A stretch of 64,000 nucleotides of DNA. Origin: Nocardia neocaledoniensis (GTDB taxonomy: Bacteria; Actinomycetota; Actinomycetes; Mycobacteriales; Mycobacteriaceae). Of this stretch, positions 28,830-37,027 are shown piece after piece. Position 1 is the stretch's first letter, and each line of letters begins with the position of its first letter. The stretch is from contig NZ_QGTL01000015.1 of NCBI RefSeq assembly GCF_003182135.1, positions 1 through 64,000 on the forward strand. Reading direction: 5' to 3'. The position numbers and the translations under genes were made by a program. The notes under the pieces are model-generated. The model was not told the origin of the DNA. It ran no database searches and worked only from the letters and a program-made list of their open reading frames with translations.

Positions 28830-29669
28830 TCAGGCCTGCGGCGGGTCGACGAAGATGTCGTACTCGAGTTCGCCCGCGCCGCCGTAGCCGGACAGGTCGG
28901 TGACGCCGTGCTCGCGCAGCACGTCGACGTCGAGGAAGGTGTTGCCGGTCGTCGTGCGCGCGTCGCTGCCCAGGATCGCGATCGCGGCGTCCGCCACGAT
29001 CTCCGGGGTCCGCGCCTTGGCGATCGCCTCGTCACCGCCGAGCAGATTCTGCACCGCCGCGGTCGCGATGAGCGTCTCGGGCCACAGGCAGTTCGCGGCG
29101 ACGCCGTGCTCGGCGTACTCGGCGGCCCAGCCCAGCGTGAGCAGCGACATCCCGTACTTGGCCACCATGTAGGCCGGGTGCGAGCCGAGCCAGCGCGGCG
29201 CCAGGTTCAGCGGCGGGGACAGGCTCAGGATGTGCGCGTTCGGGCTGCGCCGCAGATGCGGCAGGCAGGTGCTGGAGAGCAGGTAGGTGCCCCGGATCTG
29301 GATCTGCTGCATCAGGTCGAAGCGCTTGACCGGCAGCTCCTCGGTGGCGGCCAGGGCGATCGCCGAGGCGTTGTTGACGCAGTAGTCGATGCCGCCGAAG
29401 CGCTCGACCGTGCGGGCGACGGCCTCCCGCACCGACGCCTCGTCCCTGACGTCGCCGACGACGGCCAGCGCCTGCCCGCCGGCGGCCTCGATCTCGGCGG
29501 CCGCGGTGTGGATGGTGCCTGGCAGACGGGGATCGGGGACATCGGTCTTGGCCAGCAGGGCGATGTTGGCGCCCTGGCGTGCCGCGGCGACGGCGATCGC
29601 GAGGCCGATGCCGCGGCTGCCGCCGGACATGATCATCGTGCGCCCGGCCAGGGGGAAGGCGGCGGTCAT
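28830..29669 (-). CDS. SDR family oxidoreductase (HSDL2-like)
   Basis: 279 residues on the minus strand from the ATG at 29669 with AAGGAG upstream. Classical NAD(P)-binding motif SGGSRGIGLAIA at ~15-26, NNAS at the fourth strand, and the catalytic YxxxK as YMVAK after a LSLSPPLN serine strand. The sequence style (TIHTAAAEIEAAGGQALAVVGDVRDE, VNNASAIAL, NAHILSLSPPLN) is that of hydroxysteroid dehydrogenase-like 2 (HSDL2) proteins. Substrate unknown, probably an acyl or steroid-like ketone/alcohol. It is divergent from the PaaX-like regulator with an inverted repeat between. Confidence 0.9.
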   Translation of the reverse strand: MTAAFPLAGRTMIMSGGSRGIGLAIAVAAARQGANIALLAKTDVPDPRLPGTIHTAAAEIEAAGGQALAVVGDVRDEASVREAVARTVERFGGIDYCVNNASAIALAATEELPVKRFDLMQQIQIRGTYLLSSTCLPHLRRSPNAHILSLSPPLNLAPRWLGSHPAYMVAKYGMSLLTLGWAAEYAEHGVAANCLWPETLIATAAVQNLLGGDEAIAKARTPEIVADAAIAILGSDARTTTGNTFLDVDVLREHGVTDLSGYGGAGELEYDIFVDPPQA

Positions 29670-29723
29670 GGGGGAGCTCCTTGTCGTCGGCGGTGCCGTG
29701 CGGCGGCTGATGCCACGGAACGT

Positions 29724-29762
29724 TACATATTCAAGACAGTCGTGGCAATAGTGAAATATGTA
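29724..29762. promoter_or_regulatory. Spaced inverted repeat in the SDR/PaaX-like divergent promoter
   Basis: TACATATT at 29724-29731 is repeated in reverse as AATATGTA at 29755-29762, 23 nt apart. The right arm runs into TAGACT (29761-29766), a good -10 element exactly 7 nt before the GTG at 29774. The regulator is therefore probably expressed from a leaderless, self-controlled transcript. Confidence 0.6.
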
Positions 29763-29773
29763 GACTCGACCTC

Positions 29774-30511
29774 GTGCAACACCTCGTGACCGGCCCCGAT
29801 ACCGGTATTCGTCCGGTCTCGGCCCGCTCGGCACTGGTCCGTATCCTCATCGCCGCCGACTCGCCGACGATGACCTCCCGGCAGATCTGCGCGTCCACCA
29901 CCGCCGTCGGTTATCCGGAGTCGACCGTGCGGGTGGCGGTCTCGCGGATGGTCGCCGCGGGCGAACTGCGCCGCGAGAACCGCGCGTACACCCTCGCCCC
30001 CGGCCTGCGCGCACGGCGGGTGGAGCTCGCCGCGCCGCCGGAGCGGCCGTGGGACGGGGAGTGGGAGCAGGTCGTCGTCACGGCGGGCGGGCGCCCCGCC
30101 GCCGAGCGCGCGACACTGCGCACGACCCTGCTGGGGCTGCGGCTGTCCGAGCTCAGGGAAGGCGTCTGGATGCGTCCGGCCAACCTCGAGCGGGTCTGGC
30201 CCGCCGCGCTGGACGACGTCGCGATCCGCCTGCGCACCTGCCCCGTCGACGATCCGGCGCGCCTGGCCGCGCGCCTGTGGTCGCTGGCCGACTGGTCCGC
30301 GCGCGGCCACGCGCTGCTGGAGGCCATCGAAACGCCCGACCCCACAGCGAAATTCGCGGCCGTGTGCGCCGGTCTCGACCATCTCACCACCGATCCCGTG
30401 CTGCCCGTCGACCTGCGTCCCGCCGGCTGGCCGTCGGCCGACCTGCGCGCGGTGACGGCCGGCTATCTCGCCTGGTTCGCCACGTTGAGCAGGGAATCCG
30501 CTCCGTCGTAG
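29774..30511 (+). CDS. PaaX family transcriptional regulator
   Basis: 245 residues from GTG. The N-terminal winged helix (SARSALVRILIAADSPTMTSRQICASTTAVGYPESTVRVAVSRMVAAGELRRENRAYTLAP, in order) has the PaaX layout. A ferredoxin-like middle (ERPWDGEWEQVVVT) and a C-terminal helical part (LRLSELREGVWMRPANL) complete it. PaaX regulators sense an acyl-CoA ligand such as phenylacetyl-CoA. The divergent SDR is the probable target. No phenylacetate genes are nearby, so a different CoA ester is likely. Confidence 0.82.
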   Translation: MQHLVTGPDTGIRPVSARSALVRILIAADSPTMTSRQICASTTAVGYPESTVRVAVSRMVAAGELRRENRAYTLAPGLRARRVELAAPPERPWDGEWEQVVVTAGGRPAAERATLRTTLLGLRLSELREGVWMRPANLERVWPAALDDVAIRLRTCPVDDPARLAARLWSLADWSARGHALLEAIETPDPTAKFAAVCAGLDHLTTDPVLPVDLRPAGWPSADLRAVTAGYLAWFATLSRESAPS

Positions 30512-30735: not shown

Positions 30736-32001
30736 TCATCGGCGCGATCGGCCCGCGCTCCGTTTCGGTTGCAGCGCACCGGGTCCCATCCGCAGCGTCG
30801 CCGAGGCGACGGTCCGCCACCAGCGCCGCGCCGGATCGGGTTCCTTGCCCGCGCCGAGACGATGCAGCTGATCGGTGTGCCACTGCAGATCGATCACACT
30901 GTCGAGGCTGCGCAGATCGCCGAACCGGCCGACCAACCCACGCGCCCCGCCCCAGCGCACCCCCGACGACGGCAAGCGCTCCAGCCCGCGCACCAGCAGC
31001 GCCGTCCCCGCGTCGGGGGTCAGGCAGGCGGGCCGTCCCAGCCCGACCACCGCGCAGTCACCGGCCGCCACCGCCTCCGCCATGGCCGCCCTGGTCCGGA
31101 ACCCGCCGGTGACCGCGATCGGCACCGCCCCCGCGACCGCGCGCACGGTCCGCGCGTAGGCCAGGAAGTAGGCCTCGCGGGCCGCCGTGGACGCGGCGAC
31201 CGTGCCCATCATCGCCGGCGACTCGTAGGATCCGCCGCTGACCTCGATGAGGTCGACCCCCTCCGCGACCAGCGCCCGGACCACTTCGCGCGACTCGTCC
31301 TCGGAGAATCCGCCGCGCTGGAAGTCCGCCGAGTTCAGTTTCACCGCGACGGCGAAGCCCGGGCGCACGGCGGAACGCATCGCCCGCACGATCGCCAGGA
31401 TGAAGCGTCGCCGCCGGGTCGCGTCGCCGCCCCAGTCGTCCGCGCGCCGGTTGGCCAGCGGCGAGAGGAACTGGCTCACCAGATACCCGTGCGCCGCGTG
31501 CAGTTGCACACCGTCGAAGCCGGCGGCCTCGGCGATGCCCGCCGCCGCGCCGAACCGGGCGACGAGGGCCAGGATCTCGGTGTGGGTGAGCGCGCGCGGC
31601 CGCACCGCGCCGGGCACCGCGGCCCTGACCGCGCTCGGTGCGACCGGGCGGGAGCGGCCCGCCAGCGAATGCGCCTGTCTGCCAGGATGATTGATCTGCA
31701 TGAACAGCGGGGTCGTGGTCGGGCGGAAGGTCTGCGCCCAGCGGGTGAGTTCGGGCAGATGCCGGTCGTCGGCGATCGCGACATTGCCCGGCTCGCTGAG
31801 GTGCCGGTGGTCGACGGTCACGTTGCCGGTGACCACCAGCCCGAAGCCGCCGTCGCGCCAGCGCGTGTAGAGGGTCTCCAGCCGCCGCGACGGTGCGCCG
31901 TCGGCGCGGCCGAGCGTTTCGCTCAGCGCCGATTTCATGAGCCGGTTGGGCAGGGTGACCCCGCAGGGCAGGGTCAACGGATCGTCGAGCCGAGCAGTCA
32001 C
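30736..32001 (-). CDS. NADH:flavin oxidoreductase / old yellow enzyme family protein
   Basis: 421 residues on the minus strand from GTG with GGAGG 7 nt upstream. TIM-barrel OYE features: LPNRLMKSALSE at the start (FMN site), MQINHPGRQ, the substrate-binding HAAHGYLVSQFLSPLANRR (His-x-x-His plus the OYE Tyr) and the late FMN phosphate region PIAVTGGFRTRAAMAEAV ... AVVGLGRPA. No C-terminal FeS domain is present, so it is a simple single-domain ene-reductase-like enzyme. Substrate unknown. It is transcribed in the same direction as the XRE-TetR regulator upstream, separated by 101 nt. Confidence 0.9.
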   Translation of the reverse strand: MTARLDDPLTLPCGVTLPNRLMKSALSETLGRADGAPSRRLETLYTRWRDGGFGLVVTGNVTVDHRHLSEPGNVAIADDRHLPELTRWAQTFRPTTTPLFMQINHPGRQAHSLAGRSRPVAPSAVRAAVPGAVRPRALTHTEILALVARFGAAAGIAEAAGFDGVQLHAAHGYLVSQFLSPLANRRADDWGGDATRRRRFILAIVRAMRSAVRPGFAVAVKLNSADFQRGGFSEDESREVVRALVAEGVDLIEVSGGSYESPAMMGTVAASTAAREAYFLAYARTVRAVAGAVPIAVTGGFRTRAAMAEAVAAGDCAVVGLGRPACLTPDAGTALLVRGLERLPSSGVRWGGARGLVGRFGDLRSLDSVIDLQWHTDQLHRLGAGKEPDPARRWWRTVASATLRMGPGALQPKRSAGRSRR

Positions 32002-32102: not shown

Positions 32103-32954
32103 TCACCGGCCGATACCGAGCAGTCCGAGCGCGAATCCGGCGTAGTCGGTGGCGATCTGCTCCGGCGTGGCGGGCCCGTCGAGGCGGAACCACTGGGGCA
32201 GCGAGGTGCACATGGTCGCGATGGCGCGGCCCGCGGCCTTGGCGTGCGCGGTCGGCAGGCCCGCCTCGGTGAGCGCGGCATCGATGTCGGCGTCGAGCTG
32301 GTATTGCAGTTCGTTGCGGGAGGCCGCGATGCGCCGCCGGTTACCCGGGGTGAGGCTGCGCATCTCGCTGGCGCCGATGAAGGCCAGCTCGCGGCGGTGG
32401 GTGTGGAACAGTGCCAGCGCCTCGACCACCGCGACGACGCGGTCGCGTCCGCCGTCCGCCGACGCGCGGGCCGCTCCGACGCGCCAGTGCAGTTCGTCCA
32501 TGGTCAGGTCGAGCGCCCGGACGAGCAGATCCTGCTTGTCGCGGTAGTGGTGGTAGACGCCGGGCACGCTCATCCCCGCGCGCTGCGCGATCTCGCGCAT
32601 GGTCGCACCGTGATAGCCGGTCGCGACGAAGGAGTCGATGGCCGCGGCGAGGACGGGATCGATCGCGAGCGGCGGGAATTCCCGCCAGGCCCGCTCCGAT
32701 CCGGCGTCGACCTGCCAGGGCGTGGACTGGGGTCGGGCGGTGGATTCACCGAGCAGGGCGGCCGTGGTGGTGCCGAGCGCGCCGGCCAGCTCGCGCAGCC
32801 GGGTGACCGAGACGCCGGTCCTGCCGTTCTCGATCGCGCTGAGCGTGGCCGCGCTGACCCCGACGCGCCGCGCGGTCTCCCGCAACGACAGTCCCGCCGC
32901 GAGCCTGGCTCGCCGTATCCGCGCCCCGAGTCCGGCGCCGTCCGCAGTGTCCAC
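32103..32954 (-). CDS. Dual DNA-binding regulator: XRE-type HTH fused to TetR-type HTH
   Basis: 283 residues on the minus strand from the GTG at 32954. Residues ~10-68 form a Cro/C1-type HTH (ARIRRARLAAGLSLRETARRVGVSAATLSAIENGR). Residues ~98-145 form a TetR HTH (AAIDSFVATGYHGATMREIAQRAGMSVPGVYHHYRDKQDLLVRAL), followed by a TetR ligand domain. The frame is continuous, so this is a real fusion. It is divergent from the acyl-CoA dehydrogenase operon, and two separate palindromes stand between them, one touching its own start. It most likely controls that operon and itself in response to a CoA-type ligand (inference). Confidence 0.9.
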   Translation of the reverse strand: MDTADGAGLGARIRRARLAAGLSLRETARRVGVSAATLSAIENGRTGVSVTRLRELAGALGTTTAALLGESTARPQSTPWQVDAGSERAWREFPPLAIDPVLAAAIDSFVATGYHGATMREIAQRAGMSVPGVYHHYRDKQDLLVRALDLTMDELHWRVGAARASADGGRDRVVAVVEALALFHTHRRELAFIGASEMRSLTPGNRRRIAASRNELQYQLDADIDAALTEAGLPTAHAKAAGRAIATMCTSLPQWFRLDGPATPEQIATDYAGFALGLLGIGR

Positions 32955-32977
32955 GATGTTCAGAATAACTGAACATC
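32955..32977. promoter_or_regulatory. XRE-type operator overlapping the regulator start
   Basis: A perfect 9-bp inverted repeat, GATGTTCAG-N5-CTGAACATC, ends at the base before the regulator's start codon. Size and symmetry suit a Cro/C1-like dimer, and the place suits autorepression. Confidence 0.75.
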
Positions 32978-32978
32978 T

Positions 32979-33058
32979 ACCGCTATGGGTAGCGGTCAGT
33001 TGACAGCTCAGGGCAATGCATGCGACTGTTCCCCTGTTCAGTACCGAGCGAACGTTCG
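32979..33058. promoter_or_regulatory. Further palindromes in the same divergent promoter
   Basis: ACCGCTA-TGGG-TAGCGGT (32979-32996) is a second perfect inverted repeat. CGAACGTTCG (33049-33058) is a perfect 10-bp palindrome with outer CCGA/TCGG flanks, 20 bp before the GTG of the acyl-CoA dehydrogenase gene. The latter has the look of a TetR-type operator. Confidence 0.6.
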
Positions 33059-33078
33059 GCAGTGAGGAGTGAAGTTCC

Positions 33079-34283
<1,205 letters not shown>

Positions 34284-34287
<4 letters not shown>

Positions 34288-35300
34288 CGCTGCCCGGCAT
34301 GGATGTTCCCGCCCTCGACCGGTTCCTGCGCGAGAACGGCGTCGATGTGCGCGGCGCGCTGCGGGTGGACTTGATCAGCGGCGGCCGGTCGAATCTGACC
34401 TTCGTCGCCACCGACGGGGTCTCGCGGTGGGTCGTGCGCAGGCCACCGGTGGCCGGTCTCACCCCGTCCGCGCACGACATGGCGCGCGAATTCACCGTGA
34501 CCTCCGCGCTGCGCGATTCGGCGGTGCCGGTCGCGCGGCCGATCGCGTTCGACGCGGACGGCGAGGCGCTGGGCGCGCCGATGACCGTCGTCGACTACGT
34601 CGACGGCCGGGTGGTCCGGGATCAGGACGATCTCGCCGCGCTCACCGACGACGAGGTCGCCGCGAGCGCCACCGAACTGGTGGGTGTGCTGGCCCGGTTG
34701 CACGCGATCGACCCGGCGGCCGTGCGCCTCGAGCGGTTCGGCAGGCCGGTCGGCTTCGTCGAACGCCAGGTGAATCTGTGGGCGTCGCAATGGGATCGGG
34801 TCAAGACGCGCGAGCTGCACGATGTCGCGACCCTGCACGCGGCGCTGGTCGAGTCGATTCCGCGCCGTTCGGCGGCCGCGATCGTGCACGGCGACTTCCG
34901 CATCGACAACACGATTCTCGACGCGGCCGATCCCCGCCGGGTGCTGGCCGTCGTCGACTGGGAGATGTCGACCCTCGGTGACCCGCTCACCGATGTCGCG
35001 CTGATGTGCGTCTACCGCTCGCCGGTGTTCGACCTGGTCCTCGGCTCGTCGGCCGCCTGGACCAGCGACCGGATGCCGTCCGCGGACACGCTGGCGCAGA
35101 CCTACGCGCTTGCGGCGGGCCGCGATCTCGACGACTGGGGTTTCTACCTGGCCCTGGCGAACTTCAAACTCGGCGTGATCGGCGAGGGCATCACCCATCG
35201 CGCGCTGCGGGGCTCGGACTCGGGCGCGGCGGCCGAACGCGTCGCCGAGGCGACACCGGAATTCATGGCGGCGGGACTGCGCGCACTGGAGGAACGATGA
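34284..35300 (+). CDS. APH-family phosphotransferase (ACAD10/11-type, LvaA-like)
   Basis: 338 residues from the ATG overlapping the dehydrogenase stop. Kinase features of the aminoglycoside phosphotransferase fold: GGRSNLTFVATD (nucleotide loop), WVVRRPP (Lys/Arg region), catalytic HGDFRIDNTI with its Asp, and the metal-binding Asp in VVDWEMSTLGDPLTD. The last motif, WEMSTLGDPLxD, is diagnostic of the group found with ACAD10/11. The probable role is phosphorylation of the hydroxyl of a 4-hydroxyacyl-CoA, and antibiotic resistance is unlikely. It overlaps the next SDR by 4 nt. Confidence 0.9.
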
Positions 35301-36040
35301 CCACGACCAAGACCGCGCTGATCACCGGGGCGTCCCGCGGCATCGGCCTCGGCATCGCGCAGCGCCTCGCCCGGCAGGGCTACGCGCTCACCATCACCGC
35401 CCGCGACGCCGCCCGGCTGGACGCGGCCGCCGCCGAGCTGCGTGCCTGCGGCGCCCCCGATGTGCGCACCGTCGCCGCCGACATGGCCGACGCCGACGGC
35501 CTCGACCGTGTCCTGGCCGCGCACGCCGACCGATTCGACACGATGTCGGCGCTGATCCTGAACGCGGGCGTCGGCACCGCGTCACCGATCGCGGAGGTGA
35601 CCACGCGGCGTTTCGACAAGACCGTCGAGGTGAATCTGCGGGCGCCGCTGCACCTGATCCAGGGCGCGCTGCCGATGCTGCGCGCCGCGGCCGTCGCCGA
35701 CCCGGCGCGCGGGGCGAAGGTCGTCGCGCTGTCCTCCATCACCGGTGTGTACGCCGAGTCGGGGCTGGCCGTCTACGGCGCGACCAAAGCCGCCCTCATC
35801 TCCCTGCTCACCACGCTCAACGCCGAGGAATCCGGCAACGGCGTCGCGGCCACCACCATCGCGCCCGGCTATGTCGACACCGACATGAGCGCGTGGATCC
35901 ACGACCGGATCCCCCCGGAGCGGATGCTCGCGGTGGACGACGTCGTCGAGCTGGTCGACGCCGTCCTGCGGCTGTCGGCGCGCGCGGTGGTGCCGACGAT
36001 CGTGCTCTCGCGCGCGGGAACCGACGGCTACCGGGCCTGA
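35297..36040 (+). CDS. SDR family oxidoreductase of the ACAD/APH operon
   Basis: 247 residues from the ATG overlapping the kinase stop, behind GGAGGAACG. Classical SDR: GASRGIGLGIA at ~11-21, LNAG (93-96), serine strand ALSSITGVYAESG and YGATKAAL with catalytic Tyr and Lys. The coenzyme site after strand 2 (TARDAARLD) suggests NADP. In this operon it may make or use the hydroxy/keto form of the acid handled by the dehydrogenase and kinase. It ends 6 nt from a converging gene. Confidence 0.9.
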   Translation: MTTTKTALITGASRGIGLGIAQRLARQGYALTITARDAARLDAAAAELRACGAPDVRTVAADMADADGLDRVLAAHADRFDTMSALILNAGVGTASPIAEVTTRRFDKTVEVNLRAPLHLIQGALPMLRAAAVADPARGAKVVALSSITGVYAESGLAVYGATKAALISLLTTLNAEESGNGVAATTIAPGYVDTDMSAWIHDRIPPERMLAVDDVVELVDAVLRLSARAVVPTIVLSRAGTDGYRA

Positions 36041-36046
36041 GCGGGA

Positions 36047-37027
36047 TCAGACCATGCGGCGCAGGGGTTCACTGCGGTAGCGAGCGTTGCCGCCGTCGAT
36101 CTTCAGCAGCTTCCACAGCGGCCTGGTCACGGAGTTCATCAGCCCGAGTTCGTCGGCCAGCGCGCGCATGTCGCCGAAGAAGCCGCTGAGGATCTTGCGG
36201 CTGGTGGGGCTGCGCCAGAACGCGTCGGCGAACACCTCGTCGGGGATGTCGAACTTGCGCGCGAAGGACTTCGGCGGCTTCACCAGCTCGTCGGCGAGCC
36301 AGCGCATCGCGATCGGGAACGCGACCGCGCAGACCGCCGTGCTCACCGGGTTCATCCGCGCCAGGTGGGTGCGCAGGAACTCGTTGGCGAAGCTGATGTG
36401 ACGCGCCTCCTCGGCGATGTGGATCTCCATGATCCGCAGCAGCGTCGGCTGGGTGGCGCTGCCCGAGCGAATCAGCGCCTTCTGGTAGTGGTCGATCGGT
36501 TCCTCGCCGCCGAGGATGCCGATGAACAGGATCACCCAGAAGTAGCCGCCCGCCACGCCGATGAACGGGGAGGCGATCCGGAACAGGGGCCGCATGCCGG
36601 GGACATCGTCGCCGATGCGGTTCACCAGCTCCTGGAACATCTGGATGTGGTTGCACTCCTCGGTCATCTCGTGGAGGCAGTAGCGGAATTCGGGCGAGCC
36701 GTTGGGCAGCGCCATCGCGTACTGCATCATGCCGCGGATGAGGATGGACTCGAACGCCAGCCCGACCTTGGCCGCGTTGGCCTGTCGCCATCGGCCGATC
36801 TCGATCTGCCGTTCGAGCGGCAGCTCCTGATACCAGCGCGTGGCGCCGAGCGGATCGAGTTCGGGCGAGAGCACCCAGCGCGGATCGTCACGATCGACGG
36901 CGAACTCGGGAGAGTCCCAGTCGATGTCGAGGAAGGGGTCGAACCGGCGGTGCACCGACCCCTCCGACAGGGTCGCGAGGGTGTCGGCGTACGCGGGATT
37001 GCTGGTCGCGGTCTTCGAGAACGTCAT
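36047..37027 (-). CDS. AurF-like diiron oxygenase
   Basis: 326 residues on the minus strand from ATG with GGAGAG upstream. The carboxylate/His ligands of a helical diiron site are visible: E93 in AFESILIRG, E124 and H127 in TEECNHIQMF, E201/H203 in EIHIAEEARH, and E207/H210. The spacing fits the p-aminobenzoate N-oxygenase AurF family. Many actinobacterial relatives with this sequence style have no known substrate. It lies downstream of an SDR on the same strand (111-nt gap), so the two may act on one lipid or aromatic compound. Confidence 0.88.
   Translation of the reverse strand: MTFSKTATSNPAYADTLATLSEGSVHRRFDPFLDIDWDSPEFAVDRDDPRWVLSPELDPLGATRWYQELPLERQIEIGRWRQANAAKVGLAFESILIRGMMQYAMALPNGSPEFRYCLHEMTEECNHIQMFQELVNRIGDDVPGMRPLFRIASPFIGVAGGYFWVILFIGILGGEEPIDHYQKALIRSGSATQPTLLRIMEIHIAEEARHISFANEFLRTHLARMNPVSTAVCAVAFPIAMRWLADELVKPPKSFARKFDIPDEVFADAFWRSPTSRKILSGFFGDMRALADELGLMNSVTRPLWKLLKIDGGNARYRSEPLRRMV

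Follow-up and report, generated by a model that had tools for sequence, protein, structure and literature searches.

A two-domain XRE–TetR regulator in Nocardia neocaledoniensis and the candidate operators for its two DNA-binding domains

The regulator and its neighbourhood

The DNA analysed here, referred to as the window, comprises 64,000 nucleotides of Nocardia neocaledoniensis contig NZ_QGTL01000015.1 (assembly GCF_003182135.1, positions 1–64,000 of the forward strand). It includes a regulator gene facing an apparent operon of three genes, which encode an acyl-CoA dehydrogenase (ACAD), an APH-fold kinase and a short-chain dehydrogenase (SDR). The genes and the features found between them are listed in Table 1.

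Table 1. Genes and sequence features at the regulator locus, with positions in the window
Feature	Position	Strand	Remarks
SDR gene beside the PaaX-like regulator	28830–29834	−	
PaaX-like regulator	29774–30511	+	Divergent from the preceding SDR gene
Old-yellow-enzyme type reductase	30736–32001	−	Downstream of the regulator, same strand
XRE–TetR regulator	32103–32954	−	283 aa; GTG start at 32954, stop at 32103; XRE part about residues 9–68, low-confidence linker 71–85, TetR HTH 102–146, ligand domain 169–278
XRE box	32958–32974		GTTCAG-N5-CTGAAC; directly before the GTG start; from conservation
Putative −10 hexamer of the regulator	32962–32967	−	TATTCT; within the XRE box, 7 nt before GTG; from sequence
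Middle palindrome	32979–32996		ACCGCTA-N4-TAGCGGT; window only, unconserved, not counted as an operator
Putative −35 of the divergent operon	33000–33005	+	TTGACA; from sequence
XRE half-site	33035–33041	+	TGTTCAG (CTGAACA on the regulator strand); 2 bp from the TetR box
TetR box	33044–33059		CCGAGCGAACGTTCGG (CCGAACGTTCGCTCGG on the regulator strand); just before the likely ribosome-binding site of the operon; from conservation
Acyl-CoA dehydrogenase	33079–34287	+	ACAD10/11–LvaC type
APH-fold kinase	34284–35300	+	ACAD11 N-terminal/LvaA type
Short-chain dehydrogenase	35297–36040	+	Third gene of the apparent operon
AurF-type p-aminobenzoate N-oxygenase family protein	36047–37027	−	Close to the operon; Pfam 2.9e-107

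The first-pass annotation, made from the sequence alone, had described the regulator as one continuous protein with two DNA-binding domains, and this agrees with the single reading frame and with the Pfam domains HTH_3 (residues 13–65, 1.5e-15) and TetR_N (102–146, 5.5e-17), which are followed by TetR_C_24 (169–278, 4e-22). An AlphaFold2 model built on an alignment of 57 sequences had a mean pLDDT of 89.9 and two well-defined parts, with values below 50 in the linker. The XRE part has the HTH_3-type fold with a recognition helix (helices at residues 24–31 and 35–42), and recognition-helix residues S34, T37, S39, A40 and E42 are invariant in the 57 aligned sequences. The C-terminal part has the N-terminal HTH and helical ligand domain of the TetR family, with fold matches up to Z 22.5 in a structural comparison whose rows cover only residues 72–283 or thereabouts, that is, the TetR part. 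A single TetR_N domain was detected by Pfam, in place of the two TetR modules per chain of the Mce3R type. The nearest named relative of the regulator, also from N. neocaledoniensis, is 90% identical, and the acyl-CoA dehydrogenase at that locus is 97.5% identical to the one here.

The two halves of ACAD11 align with the dehydrogenase (1.6e-59) and the kinase (4.4e-48), and the kinase part of ACAD11 is the best PDB match of the kinase. Residues R251, H259, R262 and D376 of the dehydrogenase align with R626, H634, R637 and D753 of ACAD11, giving it the phosphate-binding Arg, His and Arg and the catalytic Asp found in the lva, ACAD10 and ACAD11 type. The kinase carries the catalytic loop HGDFRIDN from residue 202, in which D204 and N209 correspond to the catalytic Asp and the Asn five positions on (D220 and N225). 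Because both proteins carry the key residues of the ACAD10/11 type, the operon very likely converts 4-hydroxyacyl-CoA to enoyl-CoA. The same pairing of a kinase with an ACAD is seen in the lva operon of Pseudomonas putida and in mammalian ACAD10 and ACAD11; the two genes are separate here and in lva but fused in mammals. To our knowledge, the lva regulator is not of the XRE–TetR kind. The mammalian counterpart of the pathway was described in 2024–2025, according to the available text of two papers (PMC11342911, PMC12440821).

Conservation of the candidate operators

The main comparison covered 110 loci, namely that of the window, 29 further loci from genomes of the family and 80 named loci, and 95 of the 110 have distinct upstream DNA. 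The named loci were taken from 383 confirmed relatives as the best 80, so that this set favours close orthologues. They come from Nocardia, Rhodococcus, Antrihabitans, Skermania, Mycolicibacter, Mycolicibacterium and one Mycobacterium sp., together with one Streptomyces, one Pseudonocardia and one metagenomic Actinomycetes bin. An acyl-CoA dehydrogenase is divergent from the regulator in 77 of these best 80 named loci, with an APH-type kinase then present within 4 kb in 62 of the 80. The reductase gene downstream of the regulator is not a conserved partner, as a close copy (94.5%) was found in only one of the 80 named loci (L038) and distant ones (32–36%) in five others.

Three palindromes had been reported in the intergenic region, and all three were recovered, at 32955–32977, 32979–32996 and 33049–33058. 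The XRE box lies inside the first, a perfect 23-bp palindrome, GATGTTCAG-N5-CTGAACATC, that ends right at the GTG. One copy of GTTCAG-N5-CTGAAC was found in the window when one mismatch was permitted, and it is exact, with 0.04 expected. A 19-mer form of the box has one perfect site in the 7.32-Mb genome and the next best site has two mismatches; on these counts a wider regulon reached through the XRE box was considered and set aside.

The putative −10 hexamer of the regulator falls within this box, and a TANNNT hexamer is found at the box centre in 62 of 113 distinct boxes. The first in-frame start codon is 2–3 nt past the box in 63 of the 113 and well inside it in 22. From the distance between TATTCT and the GTG, the geometry probably fits a leaderless regulator transcript with its −10 covered by the operator. 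A consensus promoter scan found no promoter on either strand of the intergenic region, including at the TTGACA taken as the −35 of the divergent operon; its complement, TGTCAA, recurs on the regulator strand in most of the orthologue rows shown, as seen by eye and uncounted. In a group of diverged XRE–TetR genes (L160, L164, L166, L168, L170, L173, L174, L182 and L187–L190), the start codon appears to lie within the XRE box; these boxes are GTTCAGNATGGCTGAAC- or GTTCAGNGTGNCTGAAC-like, and an operator there would overlap the first codons. Two loci, L020 and L022, which match the named Rhodococcus loci L081 and L082, carry an additional, imperfect GTTCAG palindrome at a distance of about 27 bp from the main XRE box.

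The palindrome near the opposite gene, CGAACGTTCG (33049–33058), had been listed in the first-pass annotation. As the TetR operator, the comparison replaced it with a conserved 16-mer, the TetR box, centred at 33051.5, so that the perfect 10-mer is off-centre by 2 bp. By number alone, TetR-type palindromes do not exceed chance expectation in this GC-rich window (one found, 2.92 expected), and the significance of the TetR box therefore rests on its conservation, by which a palindromic operator beside a divergent target, as in the TetR family, is found here. The genome contains one further exact copy of the 16-bp pattern (L122). This copy was considered as a possible sign of a wider regulon, but the DNA there, when read, did not resemble a promoter site.

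The middle palindrome, which the first-pass annotation had also listed, has no conserved role. Within 301 bp there are four inverted repeats whose arms reach at least 7 nt, this palindrome among them, and it was rejected as an operator: it is present without mismatch in the window only and absent from the 109 other loci, one of which has it with three mismatches and the rest with at least four, no better than shuffled DNA.

Both conserved boxes were found in other homologues with both domains. The XRE box (up to two mismatches in 12) is present in all of the best 80 named loci, and 78 of the 80 also have the TetR box (up to two mismatches in 14), the other two having three mismatches. Adding 59 TetR-only or diverged XRE–TetR loci and 13 loci from a sample of the phylum enlarged the set to 182, of which 148 were classed as XRE–TetR and 34 as TetR-only; removal of duplicates left 132 and 34. 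At the same thresholds, the XRE box was found in 113 of the 132 XRE–TetR loci compared with none of the 34 TetR-only relatives and 23 of 2640 shuffled zones, while the TetR box was found in 95 of the 132 and 12 of the 34. The loci that keep the XRE box include examples from Nocardia, Rhodococcus, Mycolicibacter, Streptomyces and Pseudonocardia. For the 48 diverged XRE–TetR proteins (below 58% identity), the XRE box was found at 30 loci, eight of which also have the TetR box, and the TetR box is absent from 36. The 19 XRE–TetR loci of the 132 that have no recognisable XRE box include all seven with Glu at residue 40.

The proposal that each domain reads its own operator is well supported by this comparison, in which the XRE box tracks the XRE domain, the TetR box is also found at TetR-only relatives and both boxes are conserved together, so that the conservation check set out in the first-pass annotation came out in its favour. 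A tree of 166 TetR parts needs just two changes in the presence of the XRE domain, so that the contrast between XRE–TetR and TetR-only loci amounts to about one evolutionary event and the counts overstate independence, which invalidates a Fisher p value calculated from them. A test of independence for the link between XRE domain and XRE box had one supported pair, too few for statistics, and the box did not differ there. We therefore report the link as consistent rather than as a statistic. In the phylum sample of 396 genomes, the family profile found matches in 14 at 1e-40, and four of the 15 matches cover the XRE part, with 11 classed as TetR-only. This thin sample suggests that the XRE–TetR architecture is concentrated in the Mycobacteriales. 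One genome of the set (G766) has two copies of the regulator, L226 and L231, and L226 has a far longer linker between the XRE and TetR domains. The match to L226 starts at residue 77 and a second loss of the XRE domain was considered there, and rejected because the sequence includes both the domain and the box, with the longer linker.

The letters of the XRE box vary with residue 40 of the recognition helix, which presumably corresponds to a base-contacting Gln in the 434 repressor. With Ala40, the right half-site is CTGAAC-like, with G at the third base, in 104 of 105 boxes; with Gln40 it is CTAAAC-like, with A at the third base, in seven of eight, and the left half matches in five of eight. 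A change in either half-site was seen in all eight Gln rows compared with two of 100 Ala rows. The change between Ala and Gln is a single event on the tree and the independence test again had one supported pair, too few for statistics, although the box differed there; this link too is given as consistent and not as a statistic. No GTTCAG-type box was found at the seven Glu40 loci, and the single His40 locus retains GTTCAG-N5-CTGAAC. In the Glu40 diverged group (L175–L181), most loci share a conserved GGCGGGATACCGTGGTG-like stretch just before the start codon.

The XRE half-site next to the TetR box

A single XRE half-site lies close to the TetR box in the window, and its placement was followed in 88 of the 95 distinct loci, those with both boxes at up to four mismatches each and a spacing of 40–160 bp (L023, L028, L032 and L034–L037 were dropped). 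Between the boxes of these loci, 23 exact half-sites were found compared with 3.0 expected from shuffles. CTGAAC, with up to one mismatch in six, occurs 1–2 bp from the regulator-side edge of the TetR box in 29 of the 88, the window included, and at 0–4 bp on that side in 30 of the 88; windows of equal size elsewhere in this intergenic DNA have it in 13 of 1018 cases. The longer CTGAACA, with up to one mismatch in seven, is 1 bp from the TetR box in 22 loci and 2 bp away in six, and in this orientation every remaining position up to 45 bp to either side accounts for at most two loci. The reverse orientation was not found at 1–2 bp in any of the 88 loci and reaches a maximum of four, at 29 bp.

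The half-site is present in 14 of 49 clusters of proteins grouped at 85% identity, eight of 32 at 78% and five of 17 at 72%, and it requires at least 10 changes on the tree compared with 21–28 for 20 sets of shuffled labels. It was not seen, by eye, at any of the 12 TetR-only loci that have the TetR box. A later search examined 28 loci, half of which repeated known regions; of the 14 new ones, ten have the half-site at 1 or 2 bp, three have both boxes without it and one has neither box, and most of the ten belong to clades already known to have the half-site. The composite pattern of half-site and TetR box occurs without mismatch once in the genome, at this locus. As 58 of the 88 loci are without the half-site, it is not essential. 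Where present, it likely forms with the TetR box a composite operator for both heads of the regulator. In the Gln40 loci L158 and L159, GTTTAG-N8-CTAAC, in the variant spelling of that lineage, was seen by eye beside the TetR box; it starts about 5 bp away, is palindrome-like, and its placement differs from that of the half-site.

Related systems and the likely mode of regulation

The TetR half of the regulator is most like 3HIM (a Rhodococcus regulator), PfmR, AibR and KstR2. PfmR (TTHB023) of Thermus thermophilus is the second-best match by sequence among solved proteins (3vpr, 2e-14) and the best Foldseek match. AibR with isovaleryl-CoA (Z 20.9), KstR2 (20.9), BkaR (19.4) and FasR (17.1) share the TetR fold of the C-terminal part, and their rows start at model residues 95–99, leaving the XRE part outside the compared region. 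PfmR and KstR2 sense CoA esters, and from the likeness to PfmR-type repressors a CoA-thioester would be the natural candidate for the ligand here. Like the operon of 33079–35300, PfmR has targets that pair an ACAD with a phosphotransferase, its operon table giving a putative acyl-CoA dehydrogenase (TTHB015) and a phosphotransferase (TTHB014), and the PfmR site in the available text of the same paper is a 16-bp pseudo-palindrome, (a/c)Y(g/t)A(A/C)YGryCR(g/t)T(c/a)R(g/t), resembling the TetR box in its general form (PMC7022988). PfmR differs in being a 190-residue chain that matches the regulator from its residue 6, which leaves no room for an XRE domain.

Mce3R of Mycobacterium tuberculosis resembles the regulator in having two different HTH motifs in one chain, both of which are inserted into one operator; unlike the regulator, it has two TetR modules that form one pseudo-dimer on an asymmetric 25-bp site, as given in the available text (PMC11667970). 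An XRE–TetR profile matches the 311-residue chain of 4ICH from Saccharomonospora viridis, with profile positions 14–173 on residues 44–202, spanning the XRE domain and the TetR HTH. Together with 4NEL, 4JNN and 4KWA, 4ICH looks like a solved member of the same architecture; about 190 residues are present in these structures, aligned over 94/95–285, and their XRE part is probably not resolved. Among the titles and abstract openings listed in open literature searches, none dealt with an XRE–TetR regulator. The strings GTTCA and TTCAG are absent from the main text of a large survey of XRE-regulator motifs (PMC12565409), and a survey of mycobacterial TetR regulators that derived motifs for 30 of them makes no mention of a fused XRE domain in the text available (PMC4482099). 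The parts are thus of known kinds and, as far as our searches go, the arrangement of two operators with a composite half-site is a variant not described before.

The regulator is probably a locally acting, two-headed repressor with two operators, the XRE box on its own gene and the TetR box on the ACAD–kinase–SDR operon. The boxes, the link between XRE box and XRE domain and the placement of the half-site come from the comparison; binding, repression, a ligand and simultaneous contacts are what we infer. The XRE domains of a dimer would bind GTTCAG-N5-CTGAAC, covering the putative −10 and the start of the regulator promoter, and so limit the regulator's own expression. The TetR domains would occupy CCGANCGATCGNTCGG in the leader of the facing operon, keeping that operon repressed as long as no acyl-CoA ligand is bound; the ligand is probably a 4-hydroxyacyl-CoA or one of its products. 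Where the half-site is present, as it is here and in roughly one in three of the compared orthologues, one XRE arm of a dimer held by its TetR domains may also clamp this operator.

One protein bridging both promoters had been suggested from the sequence. In such a bridge, one dimer or two joined dimers on the XRE box and the TetR box would loop the DNA and silence or induce both promoters together. We consider this unlikely. The conservation of both boxes within the same intergenic region in 78 of the best 80 named loci, a linker predicted by AlphaFold2 to be flexible and a half-site next to the TetR box that suggests both heads in one complex would all suit a bridge. The spacing between the boxes, centre to centre, at first appears to be in phase at 10.5 bp (Rayleigh R 0.54, 0.51 and 0.44 for 79, 49 and 32 clusters), with naive p values of 0.0, 0.0 and about 0.002 that ignore the bunching of spacings near 87 bp by descent. 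However, the spacings vary between 63.5 and 132.5 bp, and merging down to 17 clusters (72% identity) abolishes the phasing: R falls to 0.26 at 10.5 bp, with p about 0.33, and at 11 bp p is 0.06. On a 101-row tree, parsimony placed 12 changes in spacing of more than 5 bp, which do not favour whole turns (p 0.84). The apparent phasing thus weakens when related loci are merged, and the spacings do not decide for or against a bridge. A DNA loop of about 85 bp is, moreover, stiff unless DNA-bending proteins are present. What the half-site beside the TetR box suggests instead is joint action of both heads on the operator of the operon itself.

Two other arrangements were considered. In one, only the TetR head regulates, and either a different XRE protein reads the XRE palindrome or the palindrome serves purely as a promoter element; the TANNNT at the centre of more than half of the boxes (62 of 113) means that their conservation may partly be the promoter's. 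The arms, however, fall largely beyond the hexamer and stay conserved in diverged loci whose box instead overlaps the start codon (22 of 113), the box was found at none of the 34 TetR-only relatives, the arm letters vary with residue 40 (in one event) and the perfect box is unique in the genome, and we regard this arrangement as improbable. Still less credible, and in our judgement very improbable, is ordinary divergent TetR regulation with the XRE domain as a decaying passenger. The 19 of 132 XRE–TetR loci without the XRE box would fit such decay, but the five invariant recognition-helix residues in the 57 aligned sequences and the retention of a matching box from Nocardia to Streptomyces and Pseudonocardia argue against it.

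An extension of the two-operator repressor, which we hold tentatively as a possibility somewhat short of an even chance, is that it is bivalent: one XRE arm would dock on the half-site at the operon, the pair of arms would close the regulator's own promoter, and the ligand would free only the TetR grip. If so, the operon would be induced while the level of the regulator was set separately, or the arms would hand the protein between the promoters, and the half-site, repeatedly gained or lost, would offer a natural means of switching between one-headed and two-headed binding.

Divergent TetR regulators usually control their own gene and their target through TetR operators alone. In this family, a fused second DNA-binding domain has apparently brought its own operator, so that control of self and of target can evolve and respond separately. 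The natural variants within the family, with or without the half-site, with Ala or Gln at residue 40 and with or without the XRE domain, allow direct testing, and the bacterial 4-hydroxyacyl-CoA pathway gains a predicted regulator.
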